Shown here piece by piece: positions 41,704-63,491 of a DNA stretch of 64,000 bases (the stretch's first letter is position 1; each line of letters begins with the position of its first letter). The notes under the pieces are model-generated. The model was given only the letters and a program-made list of their open reading frames with translations, was not told where the DNA came from and ran no database searches. The position numbers and the translations under genes are program-made. This DNA is from Paramarasmius palmivorus (lineage: Eukaryota; Basidiomycota; Agaricomycetes; Agaricales; Marasmiaceae). Location: NCBI GenBank assembly GCA_037176845.1, contig JAYKXP010000011.1, positions 248,001 through 312,000 of the forward strand, read 5' to 3'.

Positions 41704-42002
41704 GTGGGACACCAGAGTCCCACTCAGAACTGACACCAGAGTCAGTATCGAATAACTTGAATGCTTAGCCTAGGCTAGCCCGAATGAGAATGCGAGCGAT
41801 GACGGGAAAGACCAAAGTGTGACGAGGTCTTGGCAAGCGGCTAACCCTAGTATGACCATGCTAGGGTTTAGGTGCACATGATATGCCAACGTACTTCGAA
41901 GTCATCGACATCTGCTCTGCAATTCCTCGTCGTCAGGTTCGCAACTTTGGTGTTGCGATATGGCGAATAGTCCACTTTTTCGTTGCACAACTCTGGCGTT
42001 GT
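41704..42002. repeat. Covarying hairpin cluster 1 (four hairpins)
   Basis: Two hairpins with loop ACCAGA: 41704-41723 (arms GTGGGAC/GTCCCAC) and 41729-41746 (ACTGAC/GTCAGT). Two with the complementary loop: 41939-41958 (TCGCAAC-TTTGGT-GTTGCGA) and 41987-42002 (ACAAC-TCTGGC-GTTGT). The AACCCTAG hairpin lies between the pairs at 41843-41868. Arms differ from copy to copy but stay self-complementary. Confidence 0.85.
41843..41868. repeat. AACCCTAG / CTAGGGTT hairpin, copy 1
   Basis: Perfect 8-base arms AACCCTAG and CTAGGGTT around a 10-base loop, followed by TAGGTGCACATG. Related copies lie at 54908-54933 and 63578-63607, each also followed within 10 bases by ACATG. Confidence 0.85.
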
Positions 42003-42463
42003 CTGCATACGATCAATGTGAAACAATAAATACTCCCCACAACGGCCTCCAAAACCACCCCCAAGCTGAAGCAAAAATACACCCGGTTGATCTTCACGCT
42101 CACGGTATGTCCAATTCACCTCAATGTACATTAGTGCTGATATCTTTCCAGCATCACAAAGACGCTGTCCTGCCAGCCAGACACGCTAATCCCACCGACC
42201 CGGCACTGATACTTGGCACTGGTATGTCCTACGGTGTATCTCACCTTTACTATAGGTTAAATGAACCTCAATACATTACAGGCCGTCCTTTATGCTCCCA
42301 CAGTTCTTCACAGACACTGTTCGCTCTGGCCAGCTTGTTACTGTCCCCCACACCACGGATTTCTTCTGCCAGTCGCTTTCCACCCATCCGTCCATGTAGA
42401 CTCTCGCTCTTAAGGATTGATTATCACAATGTCACAGTGAAAACTACACGAAACATTGTAATT

Positions 42464-43032
42464 CTACCATTCAAAGTCGTCCATTGGTATGATATAACCT
42501 GCCTCCCACTCTGCAATGGCGCAGACCAGCTCTGCCTGCAGCCAGTCGTTGCTGGACTGAGGATCAAGCAATGCCCCGTACGCATCAATATCCACCAATA
42601 CGTGAAGTTCCTGCTTGCCGCTCTTACTGGGCCTGAACAGGAAGCGCGGTCCTTCTTTTAGCTTGATCGCCAGTATAGATATGTACACCTGCGCAAGCAC
42701 CGAGTCAACATTGCCAACGCCAGGCCGGAGAATGCGAACCTCACCTTGAATGTTGTGGATCCCTCCTCTCCCGACGGAAACGCAGCGCTTTTCCACAAAT
42801 GGCAGCGTCGTTGGGTTTCGCTATACCCCGCCACCGTCGGCAAGTCCCAAGAGGACTCAAAGCCTGCCTCTCCTCCCAGAAAATTCTGCAGGGCATCATT
42901 CATAAGCGATTCCACCTCTTCTCCGCCGTAGGGAGTAGGATTGGCCTTTATGACAACCTTCAATGACGCCAATAGATCGTCTGGGCTCCCTGGTTGCACG
43001 TTTGCTCGGTAGCTATCCGATGGGAATGTCAT
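42464..43032 (-). CDS. Small unknown protein of the large element
   Basis: Two exons (43032 to about 42754, and about 42696 to the TAG at 42464) with a GTGAGG..GCAG intron, about 168 residues. The product has SPDDLLASLKVVIK and EEVESLMNDALQNFLGGE helices, then a strand-rich second exon (YISILAIKLKEGPRF, LHVLVDIDAYG). No domain is recognised. An upstream in-frame extension to 43170 exists, but the ATG at 43032 is the first plausible start. Confidence 0.5.
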
Positions 43033-43701
43033 TATTGACCTGCGCAAACGTTGGCAAAAAAAAATCCTCACAGTGCCTGTGGCTGAACGGTCATTCGACG
43101 TGCAGTTGTAATGAAGTCGGTGATATACATCGCTGAAACGGCTGCACAGTTCATGAAAACCCAACCGCACCTTAAATACCCCTTTTCAGTGCTTTTTCAG
43201 TGATCCTCGTGGCCCATCGGTCGCCGTAGAGATCGATTTTCGAATTTGACGGTCATCACAATACCGACTGTGAAGTTTGATCCACGCGTATACCATAAAT
43301 CCGTTCTTATCAGCCACCCATTCTTGTTCCGACGTCCGCTCCAGCGACTCAAGTTGCAGTGTACAATTGTGCACCTGTCCAGCCTGACCGAAGCTGTCAC
43401 TCTCTTCCAGATACTCCATCTGCTTCGGAAAGGGAAAGGAATGGCAACCAGCACCATTTATCACCCGAAGCGGCATTAAAAGACCTATTCCACCAATTGG
43501 AAACTGAGTCGCGAAAATTGGCTTCCACCTCCCCTTTCCACCTCACCGCAGTTTCCATTAGCCCCCGGCATCTCGGTCGATCGATCGTTATATCAACGCC
43601 ACGCAAAAACGTCTATCTACTTATCTACAATCCAAATGTCGGTACATAGCAGTAATCTTACCCACGATTCGCCGTCCAATCCCGCCTGCCCAACCTCACC
43701 T
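43033..43701. other. Spacer
   Basis: Overlapping short open frames on both strands, none supported. A duplicated CTTTTTCAGTG word lies at about 43180-43202. Confidence 0.4.
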
Positions 43702-45711
43702 TCAATGAATGATCGGCGGCATTTGATCCTCGTTCCGGTACCAAGTCCATACAACCATGTTTTGGGCTCCGCACAAGATCATGATGAGCTGAGCGCCAGA
43801 CCCGTCCAACGGCTTAGAGGGGTAATAAGTAAATGCGGCCTCTGGCACCTCGTCGAACGGGATGATCAACAACTTTCCGTTCGGATCAGATAGATTCACC
43901 TGCACACAATCATTCACCGTCAGCTTTTCTCGAATGGCTGCGAGCTCCCTTTCACGACTCTTCAGCACCATGTGAACCACATATCTGATGAACCCCTTGT
44001 CCACGTATTTCATAGCGTGAGACCCTTCTATCACAACAGTCAGGTCTTGCCATTGCAGCCCAAAGTGGCGATTCGCACTCACTCTTTTTCTCCTCCTGCC
44101 AATGTCGGCAACCCTTTTGATGGGTTTTCCAGCTCTCACGAGCGCATTTTTCTGAGCAATATGCATGATGCAAACAACCGCTGCATGCACGGGAACGCTC
44201 TTCATCTTCAGGGCGTGGCCCTTGACGCTCACACTGGAAACAGTGTGTCAATCACGTATAATCGGCATACCAGGCAGAGTGCTTACCCCAGGGTTGTAAC
44301 ACAGTCGCTTATCCATACCACTATAAGCCGTTGTCACATACATTGCCCTGATCGTCGCAACGTGCAATGCTCGGGACTTCCAGTCATGCCACAAGCGTGC
44401 CCCGTCACCGTTATATTCCAGCTCGCACTGTAACACTGGCAGAACTCGACGCAATATGCAAGGTGACAACAGATGACATTGATAGATCGCTAAAAGTTGC
44501 CGAATCTCGAGGAGAAGTGCTGCGTCCAGGTGTTCGTAGTTGATACGCTCTTCATGCCTTTTCTCTGCAATAAATAGAGCGTCGATCCTAGCAATCCCTC
44601 TCAGCACTCCTCCGCCAATGGCTTCGATCACCCATCCGGTACTACCTGGGATGTGAGCGACCTCCCCAAGAAACCGAATGCCCATTAAGAGAATAGCGCG
44701 CAAGACATTCGTAGGGCATAATCGGCCTGCTCTATCGGTACAGGCCCGTTTCGTCGCCGCTACGCAAGAGGAGACAATTTTCGCCATCCAATACGACCAA
44801 TGGCGCGTCAGAGCTTCTCCTCTCCGATGCGGCAGAATTTTTACCATAACAACGACCATGCATAGAACATCGTCAACGCAGTCGAGAAACCCTCGTTTAC
44901 GCATGAGACTCGCCAGACAATTGACCATAATGGGCATGGCATTGTCATGCTCTGGGATAGCCAGGAATTCTGCGACGCATTCGGGGAATATGTAGTCGAA
45001 GTCTTGGAGCTGACTCCCATACAGTGCAAGGAATGCACGTCCTACCGCTGGCACTATTTTCCCCATTCCCGCTGTTGCCAATAGCAAACGGCGACATATG
45101 ATTCCTACCCCTTCCTCCGCACGAGCCAGTGACAATAGTTGCTGATAGCGATGGTAGGTGCCAAGGTTAAACAGGAAGTTGCAGACGCTGCCGGCGATTT
45201 CTTCATCCCAGCTACCCTCTGAGAAGATCGGCGGTCTTTGCATATCTTTGTGAACGAAGTAGAAAGTAGGCCCCCATTCCGCCAGCCATGACATCCAGCG
45301 AAAAATGTGCATCCAAGTGTTCCCCTGAGACAGGCCTGTAAATCTATACTCGACCTCTGGCTGACCCCCCTTGTACGGTCCAAGGTATTCTGCGAAATGC
45401 CGAAATGCCTCGACCATCTCCCATCCACGAGTAAGGAAGTCGTTTTCGTTTGAAGAGGAGATGTTGGGACAAGGAGATGTGAACGCCTGTTTCAGATATC
45501 GCATCAAACGAGGATCCTTATCTTTCGCCCATTTCTCCAGGTCCACCACCTGCGGTTCCATACTAAGCCCTGTTGTAACGTCCACCGAGGTTGGACTTCT
45601 TGAGATATTTACGAGTTGGGGCGCTAGTGGGGGTCGTGGTGCAAGCTTGAAAGTTACCCCCCGACGATGAACTCCTATTTGATTTTTCTCTGCTTTGCAA
45701 TCATCCTCCAT
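43702..45711 (-). CDS. MYND-type zinc finger protein
   Basis: A long first exon (45711 to about 44269, about 480 residues) encodes an alpha-helical region. It is followed by a GTAAGC..CCAG intron and a second exon carrying the finger. The finger ligands read CYNPGC (the first pair, split by the intron), then ACSGC, YCSEKC, W and H, and a final GC, the C/C/C/H pattern of agaric MYND fingers. A second intron of about 55 bases, with a CTGAC branch site, leads to a C-terminal exon of about 120 residues ending IIH at 43702. MYND fingers mediate protein contacts in chromatin and repression complexes. The long N-terminal region is typical of the expanded agaric family. Confidence 0.78.
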
Positions 45712-46007
45712 CGCTTATATTAGTTGATCGTTCACACTAGCTATACAACCGAAGAGTACCAGTTTCTTTCACTTTGCAATTCATCATGTATCATATCGTC
45801 CGATGTCTCTAGAGAATACATTTCTTTTGTCTCTTATGCCCTGATGCTGAGGATGTATGTGTGTAAGTAGATGTAGCGTACAACCAAAAAAATGACAACA
45901 TGTTTCAAGAATATACAATTAATCTGCATTGACAGAATCGTCCCAACGTACTTTCTGTGATCCGGGTTCTGATCAAGAAGAATGTGTGCAGCGACACCAC
46001 TCCCTTT

Positions 46008-47503
46008 TCAACCTTCCATCTCGGCTATTACCCCACCGAATTCGGTCAAAGTGGTCTCCAAACGGTCGACGCACGTACGCAGGTCACTCCTGTCGTATCG
46101 AATTTCCGTGGTTACATCCTCGAAAGCTCTTTTGATAGAACGCAGCTTGGTAGTAACGCCTGCCGCTGTCAAAGGCCTAAAGCTACCACTGCTGGAAAGG
46201 GGTACACCAGTCGGTCTTGCAACTCTAGGAGATCGAGCCATCTTGCGTCGGGACATTGTGTTGTCCCTGGCATCGGCACCGTGACCATTGACGCCTGTAT
46301 CATGCTCGCTCGCCGTTTCTGGAACCACAGACAGGCTCTTAGGTCGGCATTTTGACTTTTTGGCTGCACTAGGAGAAGTGAGGAAGCCACTAGACGAAGG
46401 TTTATGGGTGGCATATTTGCCGGTAGACTTTGTCAGAATGAAGATCAGTTAGCTCCGACGTCATTGTTGGGTGTAAGCAAAGTTACTCACAGAACCGGCT
46501 AATGGCGAATCCAGAATATCATCCTCGAGGAGCTGCGACACTTCCAAGTCCGAATCATCACAATCGGGATTAGATTGACGTCCCTTCTTGTTTGGAGATG
46601 GTTTATTCTTTACGTCCCTGTCCGGCGATGTTCGCTCGCAATCCAATTTTCTTTTAAGAGTGTGTTTTGACTAAACGAACAAAGAAAGAGAAGTTTCAGC
46701 ATATACAGGGCCAGTATCAAACCAAACTCACTGAAACTGCTGGGTATGGTTCCTGCTCATTCTTCTCTGATTCGTCTTCGTCTTGTGATTCGGTGTTTCT
46801 TGTTGCATTGCGTGACTGTCAGGAAAGAATCAGTTTTGGCCTGGGAAACAAACCGCACAACTCACCGAACCTGCCAATGTCCGCCGTTTGCTGCCGCCTG
46901 TTCCTGACAACATTGCTCTACCGCTCTAGGGCGAGATCAGTACTGCGAGCCTATGTCCCAAGAGGTTTCTGCTACTCACTGAGACTGTCTTTGTACCTGC
47001 ACTGATAGATGCGCCAGACTCCTTTCCACCGACCTTGATCTCCCTGGGGGTAGATTTAGTCGCTTTGACACTCTTCTCTTTGACCGTGTCTGTCTCCCCA
47101 GGTTCGGCGTCTGACCCCTCCTCAGTGTCGGATTTGGCGTCATACCACTCACGGAGCTCTAAAAACAGAGATTCATCTATGCCCATGAGCTCCAAAACCT
47201 GATACTTCTTGTGGGCTAGTGTCTTTGAACAATGACCATCTCCCCTGCAATGTGTGCACTGGGTTGAGCCAGCGCTCGGGTGAATGCAATCTAGGTTCTT
47301 CTCCTGGCATCGTTTGCATATCTGAGTAATAATCACGTTGAGCTTATCATGGCCTTTCATTCATGACATACCTTTTTTTTATTTGATTTCATCCACTCTA
47401 ACACTTTGTACCTTCGGTTGTACGTGCGACAGAACTCCTCTTTCAACGCGTCTGTAAGCCTGCTGTTAGCGTTGTTATGTGTGGGTAACTCCCGATCCAC
47501 CAT
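46008..47503 (-). CDS. Cysteine-knuckle, nuclear-looking regulatory protein
   Basis: Six exons join with GTGAGT/GTATGT donors to about 415 residues from the ATG at 47503 to the TGA at 46008. Near the N-terminus, after RRYKVLEWMKSNKKK, lies ICKRCQEKNLDC followed by QCTHCRGDGHCS. These two Cys triplets resemble a Zn(II)2Cys6-like knuckle found in many agaric proteins. The middle is acidic and Ser/Thr-rich. Basic stretches (SKHTLKRKLDCER; NKKGRQ; MSRRKMARSPRVARP) look like nuclear signals. The C-terminal 60 residues form a likely coiled coil (KLRSIKRAFEDV, DRLETTLTEFG). DNA binding is inferred. Confidence 0.6.
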
Positions 47504-47830
47504 CGTTGCAGGAAAAGCTGGACAAAAAGCAGGCGACGACGGTGGGATGAAAGTCAACCGTGTTCAGATTGAAGATCGTGCCGTGGCAAGTTCTCACGAA
47601 AAGGTCGGACATTGACAACCTCCAACGCCGGGAATATTTTGCTACAACGATGCAACTGGAACCAGAAATCGAGCACACTCACTGCCTCCATTCCCCCCAC
47701 TGGCGCCTTTTCCTTCCGCAGAGTCTCAACAACACGTCTCCCCCGTCACGTCACCCCTGTCAATCCTCCATGCCAGCATGACAACAAGTTGGCGAGTGGC
47801 GCAGATACGGATAACAGTTCAGATAAACAT

Positions 47831-48445
47831 ATGAACGTGCTCATCATTGAAGTACGTCGTTTGTTTCTACATACCTCATTAGCTGACACCCCTGCGTCAC
47901 CCTGTTGATATAGATGCAGTCATTGAAGAAGGTAATGAAACCACCACCACTCCTCTGGCCCTTCACATTCTGACATTCACGGATGTGCCCTTCGCTAGAC
48001 CAACGAAACCACTGAACACAAGCTCAATAGGATGCCTCAAAAACATGCCACCTTACAATGCGAATTATGTCCAGATTCACAAGGGAAAGCAACGATCTCG
48101 CCACAATGCAGGTAGCCCTTTCAATCGTTTCGATACCGTCGTCCCCAATCTGATATCCACCAGCATCATGTCCGTCAAGTCCTTGCTCACTTCAATTGCA
48201 ACCTTTTCCTAAAGCCGATGACTGATGCGGTTATGTACGACAAACATCACAAGTTTTTTCCGCCTACTGACCATTGTCCATCTAGACTTCCAGATTGTGG
48301 CCACTCCTACTGTGGTGACTGTGCGCACATATTGAAAGACAACCGAATGGGCTGTAAAACGTGCGAGACAGCGATTGAGAACACACCCATTCCCAATCAC
48401 ACTGTCCGAGATCGGCGTAATTCGTTGAATCTAATTCAGTATTAG
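47831..48445 (+). CDS. RING-finger protein (probable E3 ubiquitin ligase)
   Basis: Short exons on the plus strand end at 48443-48445. A helical N-terminus (NVLIIE, MQSLKK, then TTEHKLNRM) leads to the RING. Spliced ligands read CELC, then PQC, CGHSYCGDC and GCKTC, which is the C3HC4 order C-x2-C..C-x-H-x2-C-x2-C..C-x2-C. The intron inside the RING (about 48108-48288) is longer than usual and could hide a small exon. The start at 47831 is the first in-frame ATG, but an upstream exon is likely, because the same frame is open back to about 47612. The last 50 bases overlap, antisense, the 3' end of the next gene. Confidence 0.62.
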
Positions 48446-49493: not shown

Positions 49494-49505
49494 TTCAGTC
49501 GTTTT

Positions 49506-49720
49506 TTTGCATAGAGTGAGTCGAGATAGCAAAGCCTTCAGTCGTGTGCTGACTCCCCTGTCAGTGGATGTATTGGGTGCCTTAAAGAGCATTGTCAAGC
49601 GGGATATTTGAGGGCATGAAGAAATGACTCGAGACACCAAAGTCTTCAGATATAGCCTGACGCCAGAGTCAGTGGATGGATTGGATGGATTTGAGAACAT
49701 CGTCAAGCGGAAATTTTCTT
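49506..49720. repeat. Tandem direct repeat, unit about 108 bases
   Basis: The stretch about 49510-49612 is repeated at about 49618-49720 with offset 108: TCAGTGGATG at 49561 and 49669, GTCAAGCGG at 49594 and 49702. Each unit carries one or two of the CTGAC..GTCAG hairpins. It forms the upstream region of the minus-strand gene starting at 49493. Confidence 0.75.
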
Positions 49721-49755
49721 GCCCAAACCTTCAGGTCTCATGACTCACGTGAGAC
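49549..49755. repeat. Covarying hairpin cluster 2
   Basis: CTGAC-TCCCCT-GTCAG at 49549-49564 (core diverged), AGAC-ACCAAA-GTCT at 49632-49645 and CTGAC-GCCAGA-GTCAG at 49657-49672. A different hairpin, GTCTCA..TGAGAC, containing the palindrome CTCACGTGAG, follows at 49735-49755, where the other clusters have the AACCCTA hairpin. Confidence 0.8.
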
Positions 49756-49896: not shown

Positions 49897-52800
49897 CTAG
49901 CGCTTTCTCCTCTTCGATATCAGTCTGTGAGATGGTGGTTGGCCCTTGCCTTTCCAGGATAAAGGCGTGTCCGATTCATCACTGTCCTCATCATTCGCAG
50001 ACCTTTGTCGTTTGCCCAGCTCAACTCTTTTCTCTGACAAATCAACCACTCCCTCTGATTCCTCATCCGAACTGGAATCTGAGTCAGAATCCGACGTGGA
50101 ACCATATCCATCTCTGGGTGGTTCCTGAGGCGGCATTCTGAAACCCAGACCCTCCAGCAGGCTTCGGTACGTGTGATCGTCCGGCCGATCCCGATCGCCA
50201 TTGACTACATAGAATGGACCCCGCTGAGGGCATTCATGAGCCCAGGCATAGGACTCTGCATGCGAAGGACTGTAAACAAAGCCATTGCTCAACAACACAT
50301 CGCCATCCGACCCGAGAGCAGTCTCTACATCCGGCCAAGCATTTGGTACTGACTTGAGTAGCTCTGCTTTCAAAGCTGTCTTGACGTGTGACTGAGTTGG
50401 AATCCTGCATTCCTTTGCCTGTCGAAGAAGGGTGGCACACTGCTGAACCATGAAGGAGGAACGAATGTCATCGATGGAAACCTTGGCTTGGACTACTAGT
50501 TCGTTGGTGGCTGGGTCTAGCGTGTATCGGTGCACATGCCACCCCGAGCCCGTTAACCAATCCAATATACGTTTGCCGTATTCCCGCGCGGAGGCATACA
50601 GCAGAACATCCCTTTGCGGTATGGTTTTGGCCGACGTATAGCGTTCTGCCCAGAGGGCGCTCCCAAAATCCATGATGTTCAACACGTGCAAGAAATCGAG
50701 GATACCGGTAAATGTAAGGAGGTTTGGGATATCGGCGAGCGGTTCGGAGGACAGGCACTGCGCAATATAACCTTCCGATACGATCATGTCGTGCCAAAAA
50801 CGTACGATGCGAGTCAGTATCTCGCGGTGACAATCATGAGAAGTATTGGTAAACTCGTCGGATCGGTGAACCATGTGCAAAAGGGCCCAACATGTACGGC
50901 GCATGGTAGACATGCAATAAAAGTGACCCCCGTAGCACATCGCAGTCTCTGGAGTGACCACATAGTGAACAGTCAGTGGGGGCATCACACTAGAGCGGAA
51001 AAGGTGAGGGCACATTAAAACAAACATAGAAATCGCACTCACATTAAATCACTTTCACGTAGTAGCACAAGCGTTACCTCCCAGCCCAGGCTGTTTTCGC
51101 CGCTGAACTTTAGCCCTCGAAAGAACTCTAAGGACGCAGCTTCTCTCCAATCATTTGTATCAGGGGGAGTCAAGATGTACACCAGCTTCGATCCTTTGCC
51201 ACATCCGATCACCGTGCCGAAACCACATGCATCAACGTGTGCGCGGTGAAATGATTGCGTCGTTCCGAACAGGCCCCACTTGAGGTCCTCTACGAAAGTC
51301 GGCAATGGAGGCGTATTTGCCTTACGAATGTCGTTGCAATGCTGGTAAGCGACATCGTCAGTTGACAGTCCGTAAGGAATCCAAGTGTTGTTAACTGTTC
51401 CAGGGAGTGACAGCACGTTGAGGGGACGAGGATTGGGACGCTGAATTTCTGCGAGGACACGGGATAGAGTGGTCGTGCGATGCACGTAGTCCGCTTCGTC
51501 CGAGATACCACTGAGCGAGAGATCTGACGGAGTAGTAGTGAGTTCTAGGCACTTGAGAGGGGGAAAGGCGGATACACACCATGAACTGTACGACGGGATA
51601 ACGTGTTGCCAAGCGATCGCAGTGTCTGCTCCATCGTGCGACCATCCACTGAGTGAGGTCCATTGAAGATGACAAGAGGTTTTTTACTGAATAGAGACTG
51701 CAGATCGCCTGCAGCATGCCGCAGTTGATGGAATGGCATGGCCACTATCTGCTTGTAAGTGCGTGCCCGTTCTGGTATAGTTGGATTATCATTAGTTGGA
51801 GGTAGGCCTGCATCAATGACCCGTGGGCTTAAACTGTCGCTACAAGTGGCGCGGCAGAGAGTGGCCAACATTTCGAAGTCCAGCACATCTTCCTGCTCAT
51901 AGCGGTGAGGGGTGTAGACCAGAGAGGCCTTGTCCGGCATAAAGTGGGGGATGAGGTAAGTTTTTCCTGTAAATATCTGCGGAATTGATCAAAGCCAGTT
52001 AAGGTCGCGCGCAAATAAACACTTACTTCACGATCAGGAGGCTCCTCGGACAAGGGCGGAGGTCTCTTGGCCCCAGATTCCGTGTGCGACTCGACGCCCA
52101 GGACATCGTCTGTTACCGGTGATTGCTCTGCCTTAGGCTTCCCATCCTGCACCGTCTTCACCTTGTCGTTCTGGGTCTGGTCGTTCTTCTTCTTCTTGGG
52201 CTTCTTGGGCTTCTTTTTGGGCTTCTTCTTGGGCTTTTCCTCCCCCTCTGATACTGCCGCTTGGATGTCTGGAACTGTTTGTTGGGCATCAGTGCTCTGT
52301 TTAGCAGCCTTGGTTTTGCTACGTAAGGCACGACCTGAATCAGAGCAGACTTATTAGTAACGGAAGTGCGGACATTGGATCGATTCACCTTCGATGACAG
52401 GATCATTTTGCGTGTCTATCAAATGTAACTCGTCATTCAGGGCTTCACGTTCCTTCCTTTGGGCCGATTCAGAGGCAGTTACAACACTAGAACTTGTGTC
52501 TTGTGGGCAGTTGTCTTCATCAGCATTGTTTGAAGCTGAAGAGGGATCCACATCCATGTCTTTCGGCTCTGACTCGTCATTCGGGGCTCCGGCAGTTACA
52601 GCACTAGAACTCGTATCTTGTGGGCAGTTGTCTTCATCAGCATTGTTTGAAGCTGAAGAGGGATCCACATCCATGTCTTTCGGCTCTGACTCGTCATTCG
52701 GGGCTCCCTGATCGTTTGTTTGGGCCGACTCAGACGAGGTTACAACACTCGAACTCATATCTTGTGGTGAGTTATGCTCAAAAGCATTGTTCAATGCTGT

Positions 52801-54776
52801 AGAGAGATCTGATGCTGGAGGAGTTGCAGGGAGTGGTGCAGACGAATTTTCATCGACGTCCATGTCTACCGGCTCTGACTCGTCATTCGGGGCTTCCTGG
52901 TCCTTTGTTGGGGCTGACAGAGGCGACATTACAACACTCGAACTCCTATCTTGTATTGAGTGGTCTTCATCTGCGTTGTTTGAAGCTGTGGAGGGATCTG
53001 ATGCCAAAGAAGTTGCAGGGAGTGGTGCAGATGATTTTCCATCGAGTGGTGCAGGTCCAAATATAGTTTGATCAACATCTATCTTTGTTGATTTGGAACC
53101 GATATCATCCACAACGCCACTGTCTTCCACTAAAGCTGAGGGGTCTGAACAGGTTGAAATGGCAGGAGGTTGTGCAGGTGCAGACGAATTTGGATCTACG
53201 TTCATGCGTGATATGGGACTCGGAGTGGTGTCTTCAATGACATGGCCATCACGTTGGGAGTCTGATGAACGCGTGTCGTCTAAGGTGTGAGTGGCAGTTG
53301 GGTTATCATTGACATCCGTCTGAGTGCTTGGATCACCATTGATGACGACGCCTGCGTCATCCGATGAACTGGAACCTGATGATGTGGCACCGGTATACCC
53401 ATCTCCCTGTCCTTCGGCAGCAATGTTATCCTCTGCTTCATCGTCGATGTGCCGTTCCATGACTATAAAAGCCCCCTTTATATCGGGAAGAACGGCAGGC
53501 TGTGCCTGGTCGTCGGGAAAGGGCGTCGGAGCGCGTAATTGTCTGCAGCGTATGCAAAATTCTTCGAGATCAACGCCAGTGTCCTTCCGGAAAAAGTTCC
53601 GACTCTGGTGTGACCACCCAGCGACAGGGCGCATTGCGCGATACGTAGTCAAAAAGTCAAGGAGTGCGGCTTCGGAAGATTTCTCATCCAGAGCCATATG
53701 AAGTATTTGTTGCCATAAAGCTTGCTCAACCATTGCCAACTCTGGAGGTCTCTGATTACCCAAGTGGTACCAGACCTAAGTACTAGAGTTAAACGGTGTG
53801 TCCAAGGAGGAGATGGTCGACGTACTTTCACCGTTGCAGTCGGCAGCGCCCGATTTTGCATGGCCTGCCCCATGAGTAGTACCAGAGGCGACACAGTGAT
53901 CGCGTAATGAAAAGCGTTACGAATCTTGGCTGAGGGAATCTTGCGGGAGGTGTTTGGCAAGTCGGAAAGACCCTGTGAAGAAGTAGGATGAGATATCCAG
54001 CGTATCTGCTGGGGCCAGACTTCAACCCACCTGACTGAGGGAGTAAAGATAGTACGCCGCAGACTCCATGTTCAGGAGCGAAACCTGCAGCTTGATCAAC
54101 GTCTCTCGACCATCCATGGTGGTGAGAAGGCGCTGAAAACGCGTTGAGTTGTTGTGGTCCACAGTCTGGGTCACACTGAGCTGCTGGCTCTGTACCGCTT
54201 CTTCAAATTCTGCAGACCTCGTTGTCAGTTCATGTTGCCAGGAACCAAGCTCCTCTAACCCGCACTGGGAGAACGTGAGATCAGGTTACGATGATGGGGG
54301 TAGTGTGCCACATACCAAAAGCGCACGTTCTGTCGAGCTCAAGGTGAACCTCGTACGTTCCACTTTCTCCAAAGGCCTAGTAGTTGCAGCACAGGTCGAA
54401 GAGAGAAGTCGGTCAATGAGTATATAGTTGAGCAATGTCTCCACCGCTTTTCGTCGGCCGCCTGTCTTCCGCTTGATGTCGAAGGCCACGAGAACTGAAA
54501 GATTCCGCTCGGAGGACTTGCCGTATGATTTGGACACATCCGTGAAAAAGGTTCGAGCAGAAGTCTGGTCGGAGGATGGTAGAGGAATAGGAGAGTTGGT
54601 GATCAGTGCGCTCATTAGGAAACATGGACACACACCTGGAACTCAGAAGGCAGTTTTGATATCAATCCTTCGACGTCCTCACCAGTATAGTCTGACGCGG
54701 TCCAAGGCAGGAGGTGGACATCCGTCCATTCTTTGGGTGCCAGAAGTGTTAGCGAGGATGTTGCCTTGGGAGGCAT
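49897..54776 (-). CDS. Large JmjC-domain protein (Fe(II)/2-oxoglutarate dioxygenase-like)
   Basis: Nine exons from the ATG at 54776 to the TAG at 49897, about 1,500 residues. The N-terminal 330 residues are helical. A long acidic, Ser/Asn/Asp-rich region follows (about 53400-52390) with tandem repeats, then a Lys-rich tract (KPKKKPKKKPKKPKKKK). The JmjC domain spans exons 7-9: FHRAHVDACGFGTVIG holds the H-x-D metal pair, and VHYVVTPETAMCYGGHFY holds the distal His. The HxD and distal His match the usual ligand set, so catalysis is possible. Known relatives demethylate histone lysines or hydroxylate proteins. The C-terminus is acidic, then basic (SKRRKR). Its 5' side faces hairpin cluster 3. 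Confidence 0.78.
52482..52715 (-). repeat. 117-base coding tandem repeat in the JmjC gene
   Basis: Two nearly identical 39-codon units (TTGTGGGCAG at 52501 and 52618) encode NDESEPKDMDVDPSSASNNA-like acidic repeats. Weaker related units continue to about 53000. The near identity suggests recent unequal exchange. Confidence 0.8.
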
Positions 54777-54785
54777 TCCGTTTTA

Positions 54786-55310
54786 CTACTGAACACCTGA
54801 GTTCTAGTAGATACTGACGCCAAAGTCAGTGTTCAGGAGAGATGAGAGATGTGTTCAAGCGGATGAGACTGTTTCGGGGATAGAGTACATAGATGAAAGT
54901 GGGATCAAACCCTAGCAAGTCTCTACTAGGGTTGAGTCACATGTTCTGCTCTTGACCGACGGAGGCTTTTTCCATGTCGGGAAATTGTGTAACGCACAGA
55001 TAATTTTGGTTCCGTTAATCAAACAGGATAGTCCACAGCAAAAATAAGTAGATTGACGCCTGTGTGAGCCTCATCAATCATCATGGACCGTCCACAACGG
55101 TGGAGGACAAAGATGTTTGAATAGATCATGTGCCGGTGTTGAGCGTTAGCCATTACATACACAACATAAAGCTTCAAATTTCAAAGATTCCTCTCTTACT
55201 TTCACGTTCAAGTTTCTGTCCATGGTGAGCATCCATTACTCATCTTTGAATTTGCGACTCTGGCGTCGTACTTTCCCTTCCTATAACAAGTAACGCGACT
55301 CTGGTGTCGT
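54786..55310. repeat. Covarying hairpin cluster 3 (four hairpins)
   Basis: Left pair: 54786-54810 (CTACT and GAAC around loop ACCTGA, then GTTC, a bulged T and AGTAG) and 54813-54830 (ACTGAC-GCCAAA-GTCAGT). Right pair in the opposite sense: 55255-55268 (CGAC-TCTGGC-GTCG) and 55296-55309 (CGAC-TCTGGT-GTCG), each extended by a G-T pair. The AACCCTAG hairpin at 54908-54933 lies between. The cluster separates the JmjC gene from the divergently oriented gene to its right. Confidence 0.85.
54908..54933. repeat. AACCCTAG / CTAGGGTT hairpin, copy 2
   Basis: Perfect 8-base arms and a 10-base loop, as in copy 1. Followed by GAGTCACATG. Confidence 0.85.
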
Positions 55311-55450
55311 CTTGTGCTTGCCCCTTGAAAAGTCGATAATTGATCCACTTTGCATTTTCAAGGGTTCCACCTCACGTCCGTCAAGCTCTGTCACTGTGGG
55401 TGATCGGCGTATCGAGTCGTATCTCATTGATCTGAATAAATTCAATCTAG

Positions 55451-57699
55451 AGTGATTCATCAGTTTCCGCCGTGAACCGACTGGGAGATGTACAATTAGA
55501 TGAGAATGGTGTGTCACAATCTTTTCTGTCATTGAAGATACTAAAAAACCATTGCCCTGCAGTCAAAGTAAAACCGTGGCAAGGGCTCGTCGGAGCTTTC
55601 TTAGGTCCAACCAGTGAAATATTTCTAACGTCACCGAATACGACGGTTCTGTATGAACCACCACTCTCCACACGGACTGTGCGCCGTCGGAAGGACTACC
55701 GTTTCGCTCAAGACGATCCCCTTCTTTGGCCCCAACGCTTCTTTGAAGACCGCTGCCACTACTCAGTTATTCGACGACCACCAGAAGATCCCTCGGACCC
55801 ACTCTGTGATTGGTGGGAGGATCCGAACGACGTGCCTTTTAATGCGGAAGAGGGAGTCCTCACAGGCGTTGGCAAGCTCCATCATCCTTATGTCCTCCGG
55901 CATCTGAACGATATTGAAGACATCAACAAGCGTTTCGACGCTCACGCCGTCAGCACAACACACTCGAAACCAAACAAATACGCTGCGGTGCTGAAATACC
56001 ATCTCAACAGAAACTATCGAGTGCTCACCGATCTTGCTCACACCTGCCACGAAGCACGCTGTGTATACTCCTTCATGCAACGATGCTATATTGAATTAGT
56101 GGCTGCATTGGATTGGGTGGAGGTATACCAGCCACGCATGGAAGGACGATTGCCAAGCTGGAATGGTCACGCAGATGCGAAGAAGTTGATGGGTGCTTTT
56201 GTCGTGGACGAAAAGTCCGCCACTCATTTGTTCAATGCGGGGATTCCGGTGTGGGTGGTTCGTGAACGTAGATATCACAGTTCCACCCTTATCATGAAGG
56301 ATGCCGCAGTGACCACACCCTCTGGATATGCGTCGTTCGAGCCCATGGACAGCGAAGATCCGGTATACGTTGGTGCGGATGTTATGGAGAAGATAAAGGC
56401 CTTGGAGAAATACACAAGTCGAGGGATCCAGTGGGGAGATCCGTTCAAGTCGGCTCAGCTTACCACAGCTCCTGTGGCAACACTCCTGCCGCAGAAAAGG
56501 CCAGGTAAGTGAATATCCATCTCTTCCATCACTTTCGGTTTACCTCAGATACTACCACCAGGCGGCCGCACTACTCAAGCACCTCCTAAGCGCAAGAAGG
56601 ATACTTGTGGACAGGACCCGGTACGGAAACCCAAAATGGCGGGAGCTGTAAATGGTAGGCTTGAGCACAATACCGTTTGGAGTGTTAGCGTTGACCACCT
56701 TACCTATAAGAACCTGCGGTTGGTTCCACGTCTGTATTGAGTCCAGGGATAAGGAGCAACAGGGACAAGTTCGAGGTCTTTGTGTCGGACTTTGCACCTC
56801 CTACTCCTGATGCATGGGCTGCCGGCCTTTCCAAGGTCAACAGAAGTCAACCTCGACGACAAGCTGTGGCAGGGTACGTTCTCCCCGAGATGGGTTTGTT
56901 CCTCAATGTGCCGGCGACAAAACGCAATAAATATCTAGCCAGCTGGCTGAAGTACCGCAGTGCGCTGATCTTTCGCGCGAACGATGCCTCGCAGCCGCCG
57001 CCCTTGTGGAGGGCTCAACTTTGGAGAATGCTTCTTGCACTGGAAATCACTGGAAATGCTGCACTAGACACACACACCGATGGGATTACGCACGAGGAGG
57101 GAGAGATTTCGGAGCCTGCTAAAACCACAACACAAAAGCAGCGAGATATCGTTCATGAGGCTTTGGGAACGTGCATTCGTCGATCCGGTGTGGCCATCAA
57201 CGAGTCTGTCGTCGCTCGCAGCGATATCCAATTCGAATGGAGAGGCAGGCCGAGACGGATGTCTGACTTGGATGATCCACAACTCGTCAGGGATATTTTG
57301 TGCGAGCTGGCCCAGCTGAGTTTCAGGTTCGAGCTTCTATCACTTGATCGTGCCAGATGTGCTGCTCGAGGTGACTCCAAGGATCTTGAACTGGATCGAG
57401 CTTTGCGCGAGGAGAAAGTGCAGAAATGCTTCACGGCCGACAACCAAGACAGTTGCGCGCGGGGATTGGCGGCGGTAAACATACGTGACCGTGGACCCTA
57501 TCTATTGAACCTCCAACATGTTATGCGGGAGTGGAAAGGTGCTGGAAATCAACAGTGGTTGACCGTGCCACCACGTTCTCTCGAGCTCTATACTGACGGA
57601 GAGCTTGAGCGGCTGGAGAGACGTATTGCGATTTTTTATACTCAGCTTTTTTATGATGAATACGGACGTGCTTGTACTCTCCCCCATCGTCCTACCTGA
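55451..57699 (+). CDS. Large agaric-specific unknown protein, 5' exon unresolved
   Basis: The main exon (about 55451-56505) is open but has no ATG near its start, so at least one short 5' exon lies upstream, possibly joined through a CTAG acceptor at 55450. Two further introns (about 56507-56572 and 56655-56710) lead to the long last exon ending at 57697-57699. The whole is about 730 residues. The first part has KVKPWQGLVGAFLG, LLWPQRFFEDRCHY and HADAKKLMGAFVVDEKSATHLFNAG. The linker is basic (PPKRKKD). The second part includes WLKYRSALIFRANDASQPPPLW. I know the family only as an expanded mushroom hypothetical, and no function is known to me. Confidence 0.6.
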
Positions 57700-57889
57700 T
57701 TGCTTCCAGGTTTGCAGTGATATCAACAGCATTTTTCCATAGATATGTCCTATACAGCATTTTTCCATTGACGGCCTATACAGTATACTACAATATATTT
57801 GAGATACCATACAATGTATTTGTTTTTGCAAGCGTATGTATTGTTTAGGCGCTCTTGGGCTTGTATTTACGGTGTTATTTACAATGATA

Positions 57890-58647
57890 CTAGTCGTCTT
57901 CGGTGCTTTCCACTAACAGGTCCTGCAGTTCGTAGACGCTTTCCACAGCAACGTTCGCCATTTCGATTGCCCGGAGGAGGAGGTCTGCAGTCCGGCCTAG
58001 GATTGCGCCTGGTGTTTCTGAAGAGTTTTTAACCCGTTTCTTCTCAGGTCCCAAACGATCCGGAGATCTGCTCCTGTTCCGCTTTTTGCCTGTTGCAGAA
58101 GTGGCTACTTTGTTGGGGCAGCTTCCCTGTGGTTCGTCCTCGTCGGTGATATCAATCACGACGCCGTTAAACTGCTCCTTCAGCCACGCTGTTATGCCTG
58201 ACGACGTTGAAAATGTGTCGCGCAAGGATTCGTTGAATGTAACGATCATCGTTCCGAACGTCGTTCGGTATGTCACTTCCTGTTTCTCGGTTCGATCGGA
58301 GGGAAGGACAAACTGGACATTGGTGAGAAGAGGCAAAAATGACGAAGGCGGAAGAGGCATGGCAATATGAGTGCTCACATGGATGTCTATCTTCAAGGAG
58401 GAGATTCTCTCTGTCGGCAAGCCACTTGCATTTGCAACCTTGGAGAGGAAGTTGTTGCAGAATTGCGGTCCACTGTGCAGCAAATCATGCAAAGCTTGAC
58501 GAAAGTTGCTCTTCAGGGAATCAGAGAGAGCTTCAACACCGGAAGTCGCGGTTATCTTCACGATAGCCATAATTATTTCAGCTTGAGGAGCAGATTAGAA
58601 TAGAGCTTGCAGACAAGCGAGGAAATTTTACCTTTGGTATGGGACAT
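57890..58647 (-). CDS. Small nuclear-looking unknown protein
   Basis: Two exons: a short one from the ATG at 58647 (MSHTKAEII...) spliced into the main exon, or a start at the internal ATG at 58570. About 230 residues. The N-terminal half is folded-looking (LKSNFRQALHDLLHSG; EVTYRTTFGTMIVTF). It is followed by VVIDITDEDEP, which has the hydrophobic-then-acidic form of a SUMO-interacting motif, and by basic KKRNRSRSPDRLGPEKKRVK, a likely nuclear signal. It is divergently arranged with the integrase, with 120 bases between the two starts. No known family. Confidence 0.55.
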
Positions 58648-58767
58648 TGCGGATGTGGACAGAAGAAAAGACGGGTGGGAGCTATCGATCGGAGCGGTTA
58701 TATACCGATCCGATCTCCTGAGAAAAAGGGGGCGATTTATGTCTATCTTGTTCGAGTCCTGACCTCC

Positions 58768-60578
58768 ATGGCTGATCCCTTCAACGTCGTAAACAACTTG
58801 CGAGAGGCATATTATGGCCTCGAGCGCCGAGTGCTCCGCGCTCACTATACTATGGCCGGCGATTCACAGCAATTAGAGGGGGAGAAAGCACATGCGTTGG
58901 CCTTTCTGTCAGCGGTGCAGGCAGTGAGTTATATCTAAAATCGTTCGTAACTGTGTCATTGAAATTACCCGTATCGTCAGAATGAGCACCGTTTCTCCCT
59001 AGAGGAGTTCGCATGCATCAGCAACAACATACAGGCCATGATGAATGTGCTTGACGAGACAGCCAATAGATTGAGCGATCAACCTGACTCTGATACCATC
59101 CCGGTGGTCCACCGTGTCAAAACAGGCGGGCGCGGAAGGCCGAAAGTGGAGATCGATAAAGGAGTGCTTGGGGAGGCTCTAATCCTTCGCGGGGGTCCAG
59201 GGTCCCTAGCTTTGCCTTTTGGTTGTTCTAGCCGAACCATCCGGCGCCGTGCTATTGAGTACGAGCTGGTGGAGCCAGGACATCCGGTTTGCACTACAGA
59301 GAGGCATGCTGATGGCTCGATTACTCGCACCTACACCTCTAGCACTCCTGCAGTCTCGAATATAACAGACCAGGAGCTGGATGGGATGTTATTTGCCATC
59401 CTTCGGACATTCCAGAATTTTGGGTTACGTATGCTTCGAGGGCGATTGTTAGCAGATGGACATCGTGTACCTCGAGAGCGGATCAAGGCGTCATTCCTGC
59501 GCGTTAACGGTGCTCCCAATCCATTCGGTCATCGTGATCTTCATCGGCAGAAATACAACGTAGCTGGTGCCAACTCGCTTTGGCATCATGATGGGCAGCA
59601 TGGTGAGTAGAACCGCATTCTTTGGTAAATCAACAGGACACATTCACGCGAAATTAGGTCTCATTCGATGGAAGATTGTCATCCACTGTTTTATTGATGG
59701 TAAGAGTCGCATGGTAACCGCCATCCGAGTCAGCAATAACAACCGTGCATCCACCGTCGAGGAGCTTTTTCATGAAGGTACTTCTCTACATGGCTGCCCT
59801 CGACGTGTCCGAGGAGATCATGGAACGGAGAACCTTCGCGTCGCGGAGTGGATGGAGGAGACTTTTGGCATTGGGTCATATATCTGGGGAAGGTGAGAAG
59901 GTTTTCAACGTCTAGGAACGGTCTGCGTCAACATTTCACAGGTCCGTGCACAACACCAGAATCGAACGATTGTGGTACGATGTCACTCATAACTTTGGCA
60001 AGAAGTGGAAAGACTTTTTTCAAAAGTTGGAGGTATACGAGTCCCTGGACCACAACAGCAGCGGCCATCTCTGGCTGCTACATCACCTGTTCCACTTCTA
60101 CATTGATTTGGATGCACAAGAGTGGGCATCCGCTTGGAATCACCATCCTCTCACGCTTCGGAACGAACCAAATCGTAGCCCAAGGGATCTATTCCTATTC
60201 AGTCATATTCAAGATGGCCCTCGGGGTGTCGCTTTGCGACCAGTGGCTCCTGAAGAAGAAGTGGTAGAGCCTGCGCTATATGGGATAGATTGGGAGGCTC
60301 TCGAGGACTCGCGCATCCAAGATCACTTTTTTCAGAGGCAGGAACAGGAGGAAGTCTATGTTATGGTAGAAGACCCGACGGTGCCTTCCAATCTCAACCA
60401 CGTCCCTGTGGAACCCCCAAACTGTCCTTTCACTGAGGAACAGATACAATACCTTGACGGTGTTTTGCGGGAGGAGTTCCAGCACACGGATCGCAGGGAC
60501 ATGGAGATTTGCAGAATGATATGGAGACGGGCCTTTGAGATCTGTACTCAATTTGTGCTGGATGCAGGAAGAGAGTAA
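58768..60578 (+). CDS. DDE (rve-fold) integrase/transposase, apparently intact
   Basis: Four exons (about 58768-58923, 58981-59604, 59659-59892 and 59941-60578), about 550 residues. A helix-turn-helix region (GRPKVEIDKG, FGCSSRTIRRRAIEYEL) precedes the catalytic core. Acidic residues are the Asp in LWHHDGQHG, the Asp in RVRGDHGTEN and the Glu in VHNTRIERLW. The last two are separated by about 32 residues once the third intron is removed. DGKSR and VSNNNRASTVEELF are typical of a eukaryotic integrase-core family that I recall from fish and mushrooms. It would cut and join DNA ends and is the best candidate for moving the surrounding element. No disabling change is seen. Confidence 0.86.
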
Positions 60579-60812
60579 CAAAAGGGTGGCATGACCGCAA
60601 TCTGGCGGACCTAGAGTAGTGGAGATTTGTCGTATGTACAACAACAGGTCGAGGGAGAAGCTGAATATTTCTGGCCGTTATATGTGCAGAGAAGGTTGAT
60701 TGAAAACATCTAATGAAAACAATACACCTGACAGGCAAAATGGGGTCCTCAATATTGCGTTCGACAAACTGCTCCGCCTTGACGTCATGTTCCACCGGCT
60801 TCTTCTCCTGTT

Positions 60813-61413
60813 TCAGGCTGAAACGAGGCCTTTCAGGCGATTAATTTCATCCTTTAGGTACCCGACCTCTTTCTCATGCTTGTCGGCCAGGTCGGAGAGC
60901 TGAGACTTCAGCTGCGTGATCGTTTCCTCGCTCCTGATGAGCTGCACTCGGAGGCTTAGAATGATGACAGTTTCATCGGTCATCAGCGGCATTGGGGGCT
61001 CCCTATTCAGTACGGTCGTGGTAAGCAGAAAGCTTAGGGCATGGTAGGAAGGCTGTAACTCACTGACGCACCAACTTTCCTTCGACGCGTCTCTCTTTGA
61101 GAGGTTCGCCTGTTTCGCGACTTTTTTTCACGCCAGAACGAGCGCCTGAAGGATCGAGTCAGGGGATTGAATAGGTACAACTGCGAACTGTTCACTTCAC
61201 CTTCTTCATACTTGCCATCCACCTCAGACTCCAGAAAATCTTGGTGGTCAAATCTGTGCCGGTCATTAGGGGTAGTAACGCTGGGAGAAGACGATATACG
61301 AACGCATTGTTGAGGTCTCTCTTGACATAGGAAAACCGTTGAGCACAACTACGCCGAGGTCGTTTCGGAGGGGTGTTCTCAACGTCGGCTTGAGATTCCC
61401 GTTTGACCTTCAT
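60813..61413 (-). CDS. Small basic coiled-coil protein
   Basis: From the ATG at 61413 the N-terminus is basic (KVKRESQADVENTPPKRPRRS). After one or more introns (about 61035-61290 in a second frame), a last exon ends in TGA at 60813. That exon is a clear coiled coil: VQLIRSEETITQLKSQLSDL, then KHEKEVGYLKDEINRLKGL. A middle segment is Arg-rich (SFRRSFWREKKSRNRRTSQR). Splice sites inside are not fully resolved. Function unknown; it may form a dimer and bind nucleic acid. Confidence 0.5.
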
Positions 61414-61637
61414 ATCGGGAGGTTGGGAAGAATGGTAATGGCAGGTTGAAGAGAACGGATGGCCGGATAGCGAAGATACCGAGGTGGAAAATAAATATCA
61501 AATGGGTATCTCTCAACCTTGCACTGCATCTACCACTGGCACTGCAACCCGAAAACCCTGACGAAAATGCAAAACCGTGGTGAGTAGCAAGCTAAACACC
61601 CGAAATAATTATTAAGTATTCCGGTGTAGCGTTTAAT

Positions 61638-63224
61638 ATGGCCAGTATGGACACCGAAATAACGAGGATTGATAACGATATCCAGCGATTGATTCAGAGG
61701 AGAGACGGATTGCTGAGAAAGCAAAAGGGTCTATGGGCAGGAAGGAACGAGGTCAGTCAGCCTCTGGTTCATAGGCTGGATTCCGATGTTTTGGGAACGA
61801 TTTTCGAGGCCTCCGCGGCGTATGCGTTCGACCAGCCCCTGATTTTGGGAAGCGTCTGCCAAAAGTGGAGAGCAACTGCTGTCCGTACTCCTCGTCTTTG
61901 GGAAAACATCTACATCAACATTCCGGGTAGGCCATGGGGAGGTGATGCCAGCTCGGAGTTGTTTGAGCTATACGAAGAGCAGATGAGGAGGAAGGAAAAC
62001 AGGTTGCGTGCATGGTTGGATAGGTCGGGCAGCGTTCCTCTTATCGTGTCATTTCACGCTGCCGCATTTCCACTGGACAGGATCGGCTCTCAACAGGTGT
62101 GGGGGGACTTCTTGCGCCTGCAGCGCAAACTGACCCACATCATCATGGACCACTCTCAACGCTGGCGTTCAGTGACATTGCGCGCGCCATCCTATCTCCG
62201 ACGCCTTTTAGATGACGCTGGTGTGTTAGGTAGCCTCCGAACATTGAGGTTGTTACCTCCAACGGATCGTAAAAAGTTTGTACCAAGAGGTGCACAACTA
62301 TCCGACGTGGAAAGCTTCCTGCGTGCTCCGATTCGAGAATTGGTGTTGGAGGATAACCTGTTGGATATGTACGATCTGCCTGTAGCTTGGGACAGCCTGA
62401 CCAGTGTCGTTATCGACTTTGTCGACGGAATCCCAATCGCGACGGCCCTATCTATACTCTCTGCGGGTGCCACGAATCTACAAGATTGCAGCCTGAGGAT
62501 CTCCAACATTAGGGACTTGGATGATCCAGTCATGCCAATGTCTTTTCCCAAGTTGGAGTCTCTAGCACTCTTTATTGCGGTGGATGGAGTGGGGCTAGAG
62601 GAAGTTGCGCCACGTATGCAAGACATCGGGGGAGGTATTGTGGCAACCGCACTGCAGAGTTTCCAGGTCGAGTGCACTCCTCTCAAATCGACACGAAGGA
62701 TCCTCGAATGGCCTTTCAACTCATTGCTCGGATCGAAGATGACCTCGTTATCTTTCAACCTCGACGGCCTTGGTCCACATGCGATTGTGACGATACTCGC
62801 ATGCATTCCGTCTCTTGGATCTCTAACTTTGACAAACATCACACCCATGACTATCAAGGGAGTCGTTTCCTTCCTTATCTCAGGTGTAGACGGTCGGGTA
62901 TTATGCCCATGGTTGACCGAAATCCGTGTTGATCTGTATCGATGGTATGATGACCCAATCGAGGAGATGTTCGAGGAGGTAACGAGGTTGGTGGAGTGCC
63001 GCATAGAAGAAAATGGGGAAACTGCGCCGTTGAAGAGGGTCTGGGGACGGTCAAGTACATTTCCCAGAAGTCGAAACTTGTCCCACAAGATCAAGCTCTT
63101 GAGGCAAAAAGGAGTTGATATCGAGTGGGCGTACTCGACGACAAAACAGATAGGGGTGGGGTTTGACTACGGGGACGAAGACACTGAAGATGAATCACAC
63201 CATGCATTTCCCTTTCGCGTGTAG
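61638..63224 (+). CDS. F-box protein, single exon
   Basis: A 528-codon open frame without introns. A coiled-coil start (DNDIQRLIQRRDGLLRKQKGL) leads to an F-box-like motif: VHRLDSDVLGTIFEASAA, then LILGSVCQKWRATAVRTPRLWENI. This is the layout of the large agaric F-box family. The remainder has about ten Leu-rich segments (SLRTLRLLP; LESLALFIAVDG; MTSLSFNLDGLG) and an acidic tail. It would link a target to an SCF ubiquitin ligase. It is the right-most complete gene before hairpin cluster 4. Confidence 0.82.
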   Translation: MASMDTEITRIDNDIQRLIQRRDGLLRKQKGLWAGRNEVSQPLVHRLDSDVLGTIFEASAAYAFDQPLILGSVCQKWRATAVRTPRLWENIYINIPGRPWGGDASSELFELYEEQMRRKENRLRAWLDRSGSVPLIVSFHAAAFPLDRIGSQQVWGDFLRLQRKLTHIIMDHSQRWRSVTLRAPSYLRRLLDDAGVLGSLRTLRLLPPTDRKKFVPRGAQLSDVESFLRAPIRELVLEDNLLDMYDLPVAWDSLTSVVIDFVDGIPIATALSILSAGATNLQDCSLRISNIRDLDDPVMPMSFPKLESLALFIAVDGVGLEEVAPRMQDIGGGIVATALQSFQVECTPLKSTRRILEWPFNSLLGSKMTSLSFNLDGLGPHAIVTILACIPSLGSLTLTNITPMTIKGVVSFLISGVDGRVLCPWLTEIRVDLYRWYDDPIEEMFEEVTRLVECRIEENGETAPLKRVWGRSSTFPRSRNLSHKIKLLRQKGVDIEWAYSTTKQIGVGFDYGDEDTEDESHHAFPFRV

Positions 63225-63446
63225 TGCAGTATTGTATAGCGCGTAGATTGTGATGAATACATTCATGCCATCATGCCATGGTGTGTACTGTAGCTGAGAG
63301 AGATGTCCATCCTGAGGCCGCATAAGAGAATGACCATGTAAGGGGGAAAAAGTCACCTCGTACCGTTGTTCACCCAAAGCGGTCAATCCGGGCGGTTGGT
63401 TTGTAGGTAACCTTGGTGTCCCCGGCTGTAAGGAAATGGCATTTGC

Positions 63447-63491
63447 GACAACACCAGAGTTGTCTATTGCGTTCTGCGACACCAAAGTCGC
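63447..63491. repeat. Covarying hairpin cluster 4 (two hairpins)
   Basis: GACAAC-ACCAGA-GTTGTC at 63447-63464 and GCGAC-ACCAAA-GTCGC at 63476-63491, in the same orientation as the left pairs of clusters 1 and 3. No opposite pair is seen to the right before the window ends. Confidence 0.85.

Follow-up and report, generated by a model that had tools for sequence, protein, structure and literature searches.

The spacers of a large mobile element in the basidiomycete Paramarasmius palmivorus carry a family of short hairpins whose arms differ from copy to copy while staying complementary, and our results show purifying selection on both the arms and the core. The element spans 35510-72702 (37,193 bases) of a 64,000-nucleotide stretch of contig JAYKXP010000011.1 (the window; coordinates are those of the whole window, values above 64,000 lie to its right, and its contig is called C11 below). 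Comparison of the copies makes it well supported that the hairpins are selected for a folded strand. As to their role, we give about even chances to the reading that they are cis-acting RNA stem-loops in transcript leaders, where they would serve as a common control signal for the RNAs of the element.

Hairpin copies and their genomic distribution

An earlier note on this DNA had described eleven copies of the core ACRCCARAGT, or its complement, with differing but complementary arms, together with two copies in which the loop is changed. Exact matches to the core number 13 in the window, compared to a mean of 0.53 in shuffled sequence (maximum 4 in 100 shuffles). Eleven of them, all between 41709 and 63488, are flanked by 2-5 further Watson-Crick pairs and have the arms that were listed. 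The two arm-less cores lie outside the block (6875) and within an open reading frame (ORF) at 52354-53763 (core at 53602), so that the restriction to spacers holds for the armed copies and not for all cores. Both copies with an altered loop were recovered, at 49552 (TCCCCT) and 54793 (TCAGGT), and four more are found immediately right of the window (69346, 69437, 69474 and 69714). The hairpins of the window are given below by spacer module (M1 to M4), with the strand being the outward one, i.e. the strand that reads away from the spacer centre.

41704..41723, minus strand: M1-left distal hairpin, arms GTGGG/CCCAC, outward loop TCTGGT
41729..41746, minus strand: M1-left proximal hairpin, arms ACTG/CAGT
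41939..41958, plus strand: M1-right proximal hairpin, arms TCGCA/TGCGA, loop TTTGGT
41987..42002, plus strand: M1-right distal hairpin, arms ACA/TGT, loop TCTGGC
49552..49561, no strand: tandem copy of 49660, stem CTGAC/GTCAG retained, loop altered to TCCCCT
49631..49646, minus strand: M2 distal hairpin, arms GAG/CTT with one core-strand wobble, loop TTTGGT
49657..49672, minus strand: M2 proximal hairpin, arms CTG/CAG, loop TCTGGC
54793..54802, minus strand: M3-left distal hairpin, altered loop TCAGGT, ATG of gene G8 17 positions on
54813..54830, minus strand: M3-left proximal hairpin, arms ACTG/CAGT, loop TTTGGC
55255..55268, plus strand: M3-right proximal hairpin, arms CG/CG then an outward-strand G-T pair, loop TCTGGC
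55296..55309, plus strand: M3-right distal hairpin, arms CG/CG then an outward-strand G-T pair, loop TCTGGT
63447..63464, minus strand: M4-left distal hairpin, arms GACA/TGTC, loop TCTGGT
63476..63491, minus strand: M4-left proximal hairpin, arms GCG/CGC, loop TTTGGT

The genome (68.3 Mb, 393 contigs) was scanned with the reversed pattern as control. A single core is only mildly enriched genome-wide, with 673 matches vs. 445 for the reversed pattern. Tandem pairs of cores (within 38 bases) were found 19 times vs. none in the control, and all 19 are located in four contigs, C11, C279, C89 and C210. A looser loop pattern gave 29 tandem pairs vs. 4 in the control; 26 of these fall in the same four contigs and the remaining three, on C23, C86 and C88, are about the number expected from the control. 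The earlier note had looked to integrase genes and element ends as the landmarks for such hits, and each of the four contigs does contain an integrase gene of the Pfam family rva_4, about 16.6 kb from the hairpins in C89. This integrase family has 39 matches genome-wide, in about 20 loci by our own count, with hairpin pairs in the four contigs, and parts of two other integrase loci (L047 and L048, 16 kb together) were without core, palindrome or repeated loop. Core matches sampled elsewhere in the genome (n = 14) had on average 1.36 of 5 flanking pairs, and two consecutive pairs were seen in none of them. Five of the 14 came from four loci picked for a matching first pair (L043-L046), where one consecutive pair only was present. 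Tandem hairpin pairs are thus restricted to a single family of such elements.

Covariation and selection on the arms

For the analysis of covariation we aligned 42 copies from C11, C89 and C210 that were taken by a relaxed loop pattern alone, regardless of arm pairing; the C279 copies were left out because they are duplicates of those in C11. Three arm-less rows (C11 53602, C11 68683 and C89 81062) were kept in the covariation and swap tests and omitted from the folding mean and the wobble count. At least three of the first four flanking positions are paired in 34 of the 42 copies, compared to 1-3 such copies among the 3-12 found with each of six control patterns (a control pattern equal to the same set on the other strand was left out of the six). 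The covariation measure was 0.547 vs. 0.197 +/- 0.025 after shuffling, with none of 500 shuffles as high, and versions in which the arms were slid gave 0.09-0.17 (maximum 0.169). Cells changed on both sides numbered 80 vs. 33.5 in shuffled alignments. When whole right arms were swapped between copies, a mean of 68.9 pairs was obtained (maximum 108 in 100,000 trials) compared to the 140 of 210 observed, and 36 non-redundant rows gave the same picture (119 of 180 pairs vs. mean 57.7, maximum 85). A swap test on 12 rows from the window, which omitted copy 6875 and took in 53602, gave 30 of 36 pairs at k=3 (0 of 100,000 as high) and 41 of 60 at k=5 (1 of 100,000). The complementarity of the arms thereby exceeds that of shuffled, slid and swapped arms. 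At the second flanking pair (n = 42) all four Watson-Crick types are present (CG 15, UA 11, GC 6 and AU 3, next to GU 1, UG 1 and 5 unpaired), a sign of independent arm variation, and this bears out the claim of the earlier note that pairing is kept while sequence is not.

Purifying selection was seen in the comparison of C11 with its second copy in C279 (17 hairpins; C11 copy 69346 was left out of the count). Substitutions were found at 1 of 170 core positions and 3 of 136 arm positions vs. 154 of 1701 positions in the other spacer DNA (Fisher vs. rest of spacers: core 6e-6, arms 0.004). Each of the three changes in the arms results in a G-T pair, which lies on the outward strand in two cases and on the core strand in one. 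This slow change of the arms bears on a purely mutational origin, in which template switching during replication would perfect small palindromes and no selection is involved. Correction of imperfect palindromes by template switching is a known process, and several of the hairpin copies are tandem duplicates; the arms, however, change more slowly than the spacer around them, the loop is conserved as well, and for other hairpins in the same spacers an unforced scan made no common loop family visible. We consider such an origin very unlikely.

Chance, or the single recent duplication that the earlier note had named as an alternative, is hardly credible. Some local tandem duplicates do exist, but they are few (49.5k, 69.3-69.5k, and C89 80.7k and 84.3k), the copies come from three diverged elements with different arms, and the enrichment, covariation and swap tests are all far beyond their controls. 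A repeat family resembling miniature inverted-repeat transposable elements was also tried as a source and rejected, because no such repeat came up when spacers from different modules were compared by blastn and because half-modules stay with orthologous genes across diverged elements.

Module anatomy and the host element

Within the spacers the hairpins have a usual order and a consistent orientation. The core as first read points inward in six of six two-sided spacers (plus copies left, minus copies right), and in the four one-sided spacers the copies are all plus. On the outward strand the copies conform to the consensus AC-T[C/T]NGGN-GT. A palindrome of the form AACCCTA-N11-14-TAGGGTT lies at the centre of most modules (M1, M3, M4 and M5 in C11, four in C279 and one in C89); those in C210 are imperfect and in M2 none was found. 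The central palindromes of the window are:

41843..41868, no strand: M1 palindrome, AACCCTA-N12-TAGGGTT
54908..54933, no strand: M3 palindrome
63579..63606, no strand: M4 palindrome (N14)

Of 12 half-modules measured, 11 have their nearest hairpin 49-123 bases from the palindrome and one has it 324 bases away, while the spacing of nearest hairpin pairs is 24-46 bases in 16 of 17 cases and 100 in one; a third copy is present in some half-modules. The arrangement relative to genes is also kept. The distal hairpin core precedes the ATG of orthologous G8 genes by 17 positions in C11 and 13 in C210, and in both contigs the distance from the hairpins to the first aligned G9 residue, which lies downstream, is about 258-273 bases. 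Genome-wide, AACCCTA-N8-16-TAGGGTT occurs at 35 sites vs. 1 for the reversed control, and nine of these are in hairpin modules. One such palindrome, on C115, precedes a distant homolog of G9 by about 377 bases. Nine palindromes of 28-29 bases sit 2.3-5.4 kb from contig starts, perhaps as a subtelomeric repeat.

In the palindrome the half-sites are constant and the spacer is variable, and in the hairpins this is reversed, as the arms vary and the loop is nearly fixed; judged by this, the palindrome behaves like an ordinary double-stranded DNA site. The question is then whether the hairpins could be one as well, a double-stranded promoter motif (ACTYNGGNGT) with symmetric arms as a by-product, e.g. 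of dimer contacts of relaxed specificity. Their promoter-like position next to a palindrome with constant half-sites fits this, and so does a small cysteine-rich protein encoded in both C11 and C210 (C-x2-C-x6-C-x9/11-C-x2-C-x5-C; window 46926-47360 and C210 14843-15118), resembling a Zn2Cys6 DNA-binding domain by our own label and without a Pfam match. A double-stranded site would, however, keep its sequence, whereas the second flanking pair covaries through all four Watson-Crick types; moreover the arms are conserved between orthologous copies and the cores sampled elsewhere are unpaired, which makes a promoter motif an unlikely explanation. The modules likewise resemble bidirectional promoters and the subterminal repeats bound by transposases in having divergent spacers, a common motif, usually one DNA palindrome, and TCTGGCA repeats at the element ends, but they differ in that the hairpins covary in their arms, sit internally and mostly form ordered pairs. 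The TCTGGCA repeats near the element ends (window 35510-36110) number four in the left 600 bases, two in the right 611 and none in mid-stretch, and include the loop letters CTGG.

The element has terminal inverted repeats of which 22 of 30 bases match, with the right end lying outside the window, and the bases that flank it, inspected for a target site duplication, are ggaaat and tattac. The features referred to here are:

35510..35536, no strand: element left end, terminal inverted repeat TAYGGTGTACC..TGGACAAAAA, whose partner ends at 72702
54286..54776, minus strand: gene G8, 5' part, with hairpins 54793 and 54817 before its ATG and a homolog in C210
55451..57699, plus strand: gene G9, two ORFs, neither with a Pfam match, with hairpins upstream in C11 and C210
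58963..60578, plus strand: integrase gene, apparently of several exons, Pfam rva_4 (PF24764)

Three diverged versions of the element were found, one of them present as two copies of about 91% identity (C11 and C279). C279 holds the second copy of the C11 block, in long aligned pieces that are 83-93% identical, mostly about 91-93%. C210 carries a diverged version, with tblastn matches to 10 C11 gene blocks, and in C89 the integrase, an F-box-like gene and the right-end genes are only distantly related to those of C11. The C11 and C279 copies adjoin related stretches of a proline-rich repeat gene with its promoter (window 35123-35509; C279 4669-5051), and these related flanks suggest a preferred target. 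C218 3128-4201 is a 97% copy of a G1 exon and may represent the end that the C279 copy lacks.

A Pfam scan of 20 ORFs gave rva_4 above the cut-off and one F-box-like match at the cut-off, the rest being below it or without match; the terminal genes G1 and G2 comprise ORFs without a Pfam match or with weak ones below the cut-off. Searching proteins with G9 as query returned no homologs at E up to 0.001, in a database of uncertain fungal coverage. Four long ORFs clustered in the element (window 61638-63224; L028 304-5084) were called F-box-like; two match at the Pfam cut-off or just under it, a third weakly and the fourth not at all, and two of the ORFs are 78% similar over 460 bases. Imperfect repeats of 117-189 bases are found within a long ORF at window 52402-53040, and the left part of the window has three copies of a repeat of about 1.8-1.9 kb (9763-11682, 18104-20035 and 23556-25363). 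As a large fungal element with many genes it is comparable to the Starships of Pezizomycotina, whose classification is centred on a tyrosine recombinase as outlined in PMC12134995, but it differs from these by its terminal inverted repeats and its rva_4 integrase.

The folded strand and its possible reader

One feature of the loop may point to the outward strand as the one that folds. The second loop position is C in 29 and U in 13 of the 42 copies (the pattern admitted no base other than C or T here) and is opposite an invariant G, so this base could form a C-G or U-G pair if the outward strand folds, compared to C-G or C-A on the other strand. If the loop is paired internally, as we infer, this favours the outward strand. 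RNA was ranked first because of the position of the hairpins and not because of strand statistics. The order palindrome, hairpin, hairpin, gene, with a core that precedes the G8 ATG by 13-17 positions, fits control of expression better than recombination, replication or silencing.

The mechanism we propose is as follows. In a family of large elements with terminal inverted repeats, many genes are separated by spacer modules, which usually have a central palindrome flanked on one side or on both by 2-3 outward stem-loops. The outward strand is probably transcribed, so that transcripts would carry the hairpins in their 5' leaders, and a loop-reading protein may then bind U[C/U]NGGN with almost no regard to the sequence of the stem. 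Possibly, this reader is a SAM-domain protein of the host, of the Smaug/Vts1 kind, and the bound protein might set the translation or the decay of the element RNAs jointly. The inferred parts of this scheme are transcription, the choice of RNA over single-stranded DNA, which kind of protein binds, and in which direction it regulates.

Known Smaug recognition elements (SREs) occur at several sites per RNA and have a C-G pair within the loop. The hairpins of the element are like SREs in having CNGG in a hairpin loop on an apparently unspecific stem, and the free and fixed positions agree (Y-N-G-G-N). PMC4053848 gives the SRE loop as CNGGN0-3 on a non-specific stem, CNGG occupying the 5' end of the loop, and the loop rule is stated also in PMC2895634 and PMC9893680. 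The element hairpins differ in that the six-base loop opens with an unpaired U and has CNGG from its second base on, that 13 of 42 carry U for C, and that two loop-adjacent pairs are fixed in the pattern. Since the unpaired U and the 13 copies with U for C fail the strict definition, we call the hairpins SRE-like and not SREs. They also differ in location, being mostly outward of the palindrome and, at G8, before the gene, whereas SREs are located in the 3' untranslated region of mRNA (PMC9893680). The SAM_2 domain has five matches in the host genome and none in the four element contigs. In window 35000-64000 no Rfam covariance model matched with an E value of 1 or less. As for the stem, the outer five pairs vary and the inner A-U and C-G are imposed by the pattern. 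An unforced scan for AC-N6-GT with paired arms gave as misfits to U-Y-N-G-G-N the duplicate TCCCCT and four hairpins that we took as chance, and no loop family with other closing pairs was seen in it.

Several observations weigh against RNA leaders read by their loop. The A-U and C-G pairs beside the loop are invariant, as the search pattern required, and a pure loop reader would seem not to need them. Two of the five covariation measures are unremarkable: pairs with change on both sides (5 vs. 5.0 shuffled, 484 of 500 as high) and further pair types (21 vs. 18.5, 23 of 500). Among the first three flanking pairs of the armed copies we counted by hand 9 wobbles on the outward and 4 on the core strand, which are too few. 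Predicted pairing in context is 0.80 on average for the outward and 0.79 for the core strand, and the local energy (-7.9 vs. -7.1) also gives little strand contrast; in 8 of 39 armed copies the predicted outward-strand pairing is below 0.5. Finally, at least 5 of 16 half-modules face the 3' end of the neighbouring gene, namely G2 (C11 and C210) and an F-box-like gene (C11 twice, C89), and RNA made outward from these would be antisense or short and non-coding. Where half-modules face gene 3' ends, intron-like signals were seen.

The alternative molecule would be folded single-stranded DNA, with a recombinase or replication protein that flips or exchanges gene blocks between modules. Integron attC sites work as folded strands with variable arms between gene cassettes, and the hairpins, lying between genes, are similar in all these respects. 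The C11 interior 41910-69508 (27.6 kb) is inverted relative to its flanks in C279 (9912-37885), and both breakpoints are within hairpin modules, at similar places that separate the two halves of M1 in one case and of M5 in the other. A single module in C210 has both the G2 and the G9 homolog as neighbours and looks like half of M1 joined to half of M3, the modules to which C11 assigns G2 and G9, respectively, and the common orientation in the six two-sided spacers also agrees with such an exchange. Breakpoints within spacers are, however, expected anyway, the crossovers lie beside the hairpins and not inside them, and a hand count of broken C11/C210 adjacencies (2 of 3 at modules, 2 of 6 elsewhere) shows no clear contrast, so that gene-block shuffling at modules is suggestive only. 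The hairpins have a fixed single six-base loop where attC has fixed outer boxes, and the gene order bears no clear relation to the sites. Neither a tyrosine recombinase nor an integron integrase was seen among the 20 ORFs scanned vs. Pfam, a subset of genes that are themselves split by introns, and the integrase match is rva_4. Folded DNA also leaves the hairpins directly before an ATG unexplained, and on balance we regard this alternative as improbable. The earlier note had proposed that the folded strand is used in recombination, replication or silencing; selection for folding stands, and the proposed uses are candidates, of which recombination has some support from the breakpoints.

Returning to the RNA stem-loops, a wider proposition, which we hold to be possible but doubtful, is that paired RNA hairpins with a fixed loop code and free stems put the RNAs of this giant eukaryotic DNA transposon under a single RNA-binding protein of the host, of the Smaug/Vts1 type, and so form a post-transcriptional regulon of the element, its modules doubling as joints for the flipping or exchange of gene blocks. 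We found no report of such hairpins in fungal elements in the open-licence literature for the terms tried, and the word 'hairpin' is absent from the main text of a paper on fungal DNA transposons (PMC12730594).

Taken together, selection for a folded shape on the non-coding DNA of a mobile element, which can seldom be demonstrated from sequence alone, is demonstrable here, and the ordinary DNA palindrome that shares the spacers with the hairpins serves as an internal contrast. If the hairpins act in RNA, they would be a model for the post-transcriptional co-regulation of a large transposon, with a ready test of the reader protein. Should they instead act as folded DNA, the joints of integrons would have a counterpart in eukaryotes.

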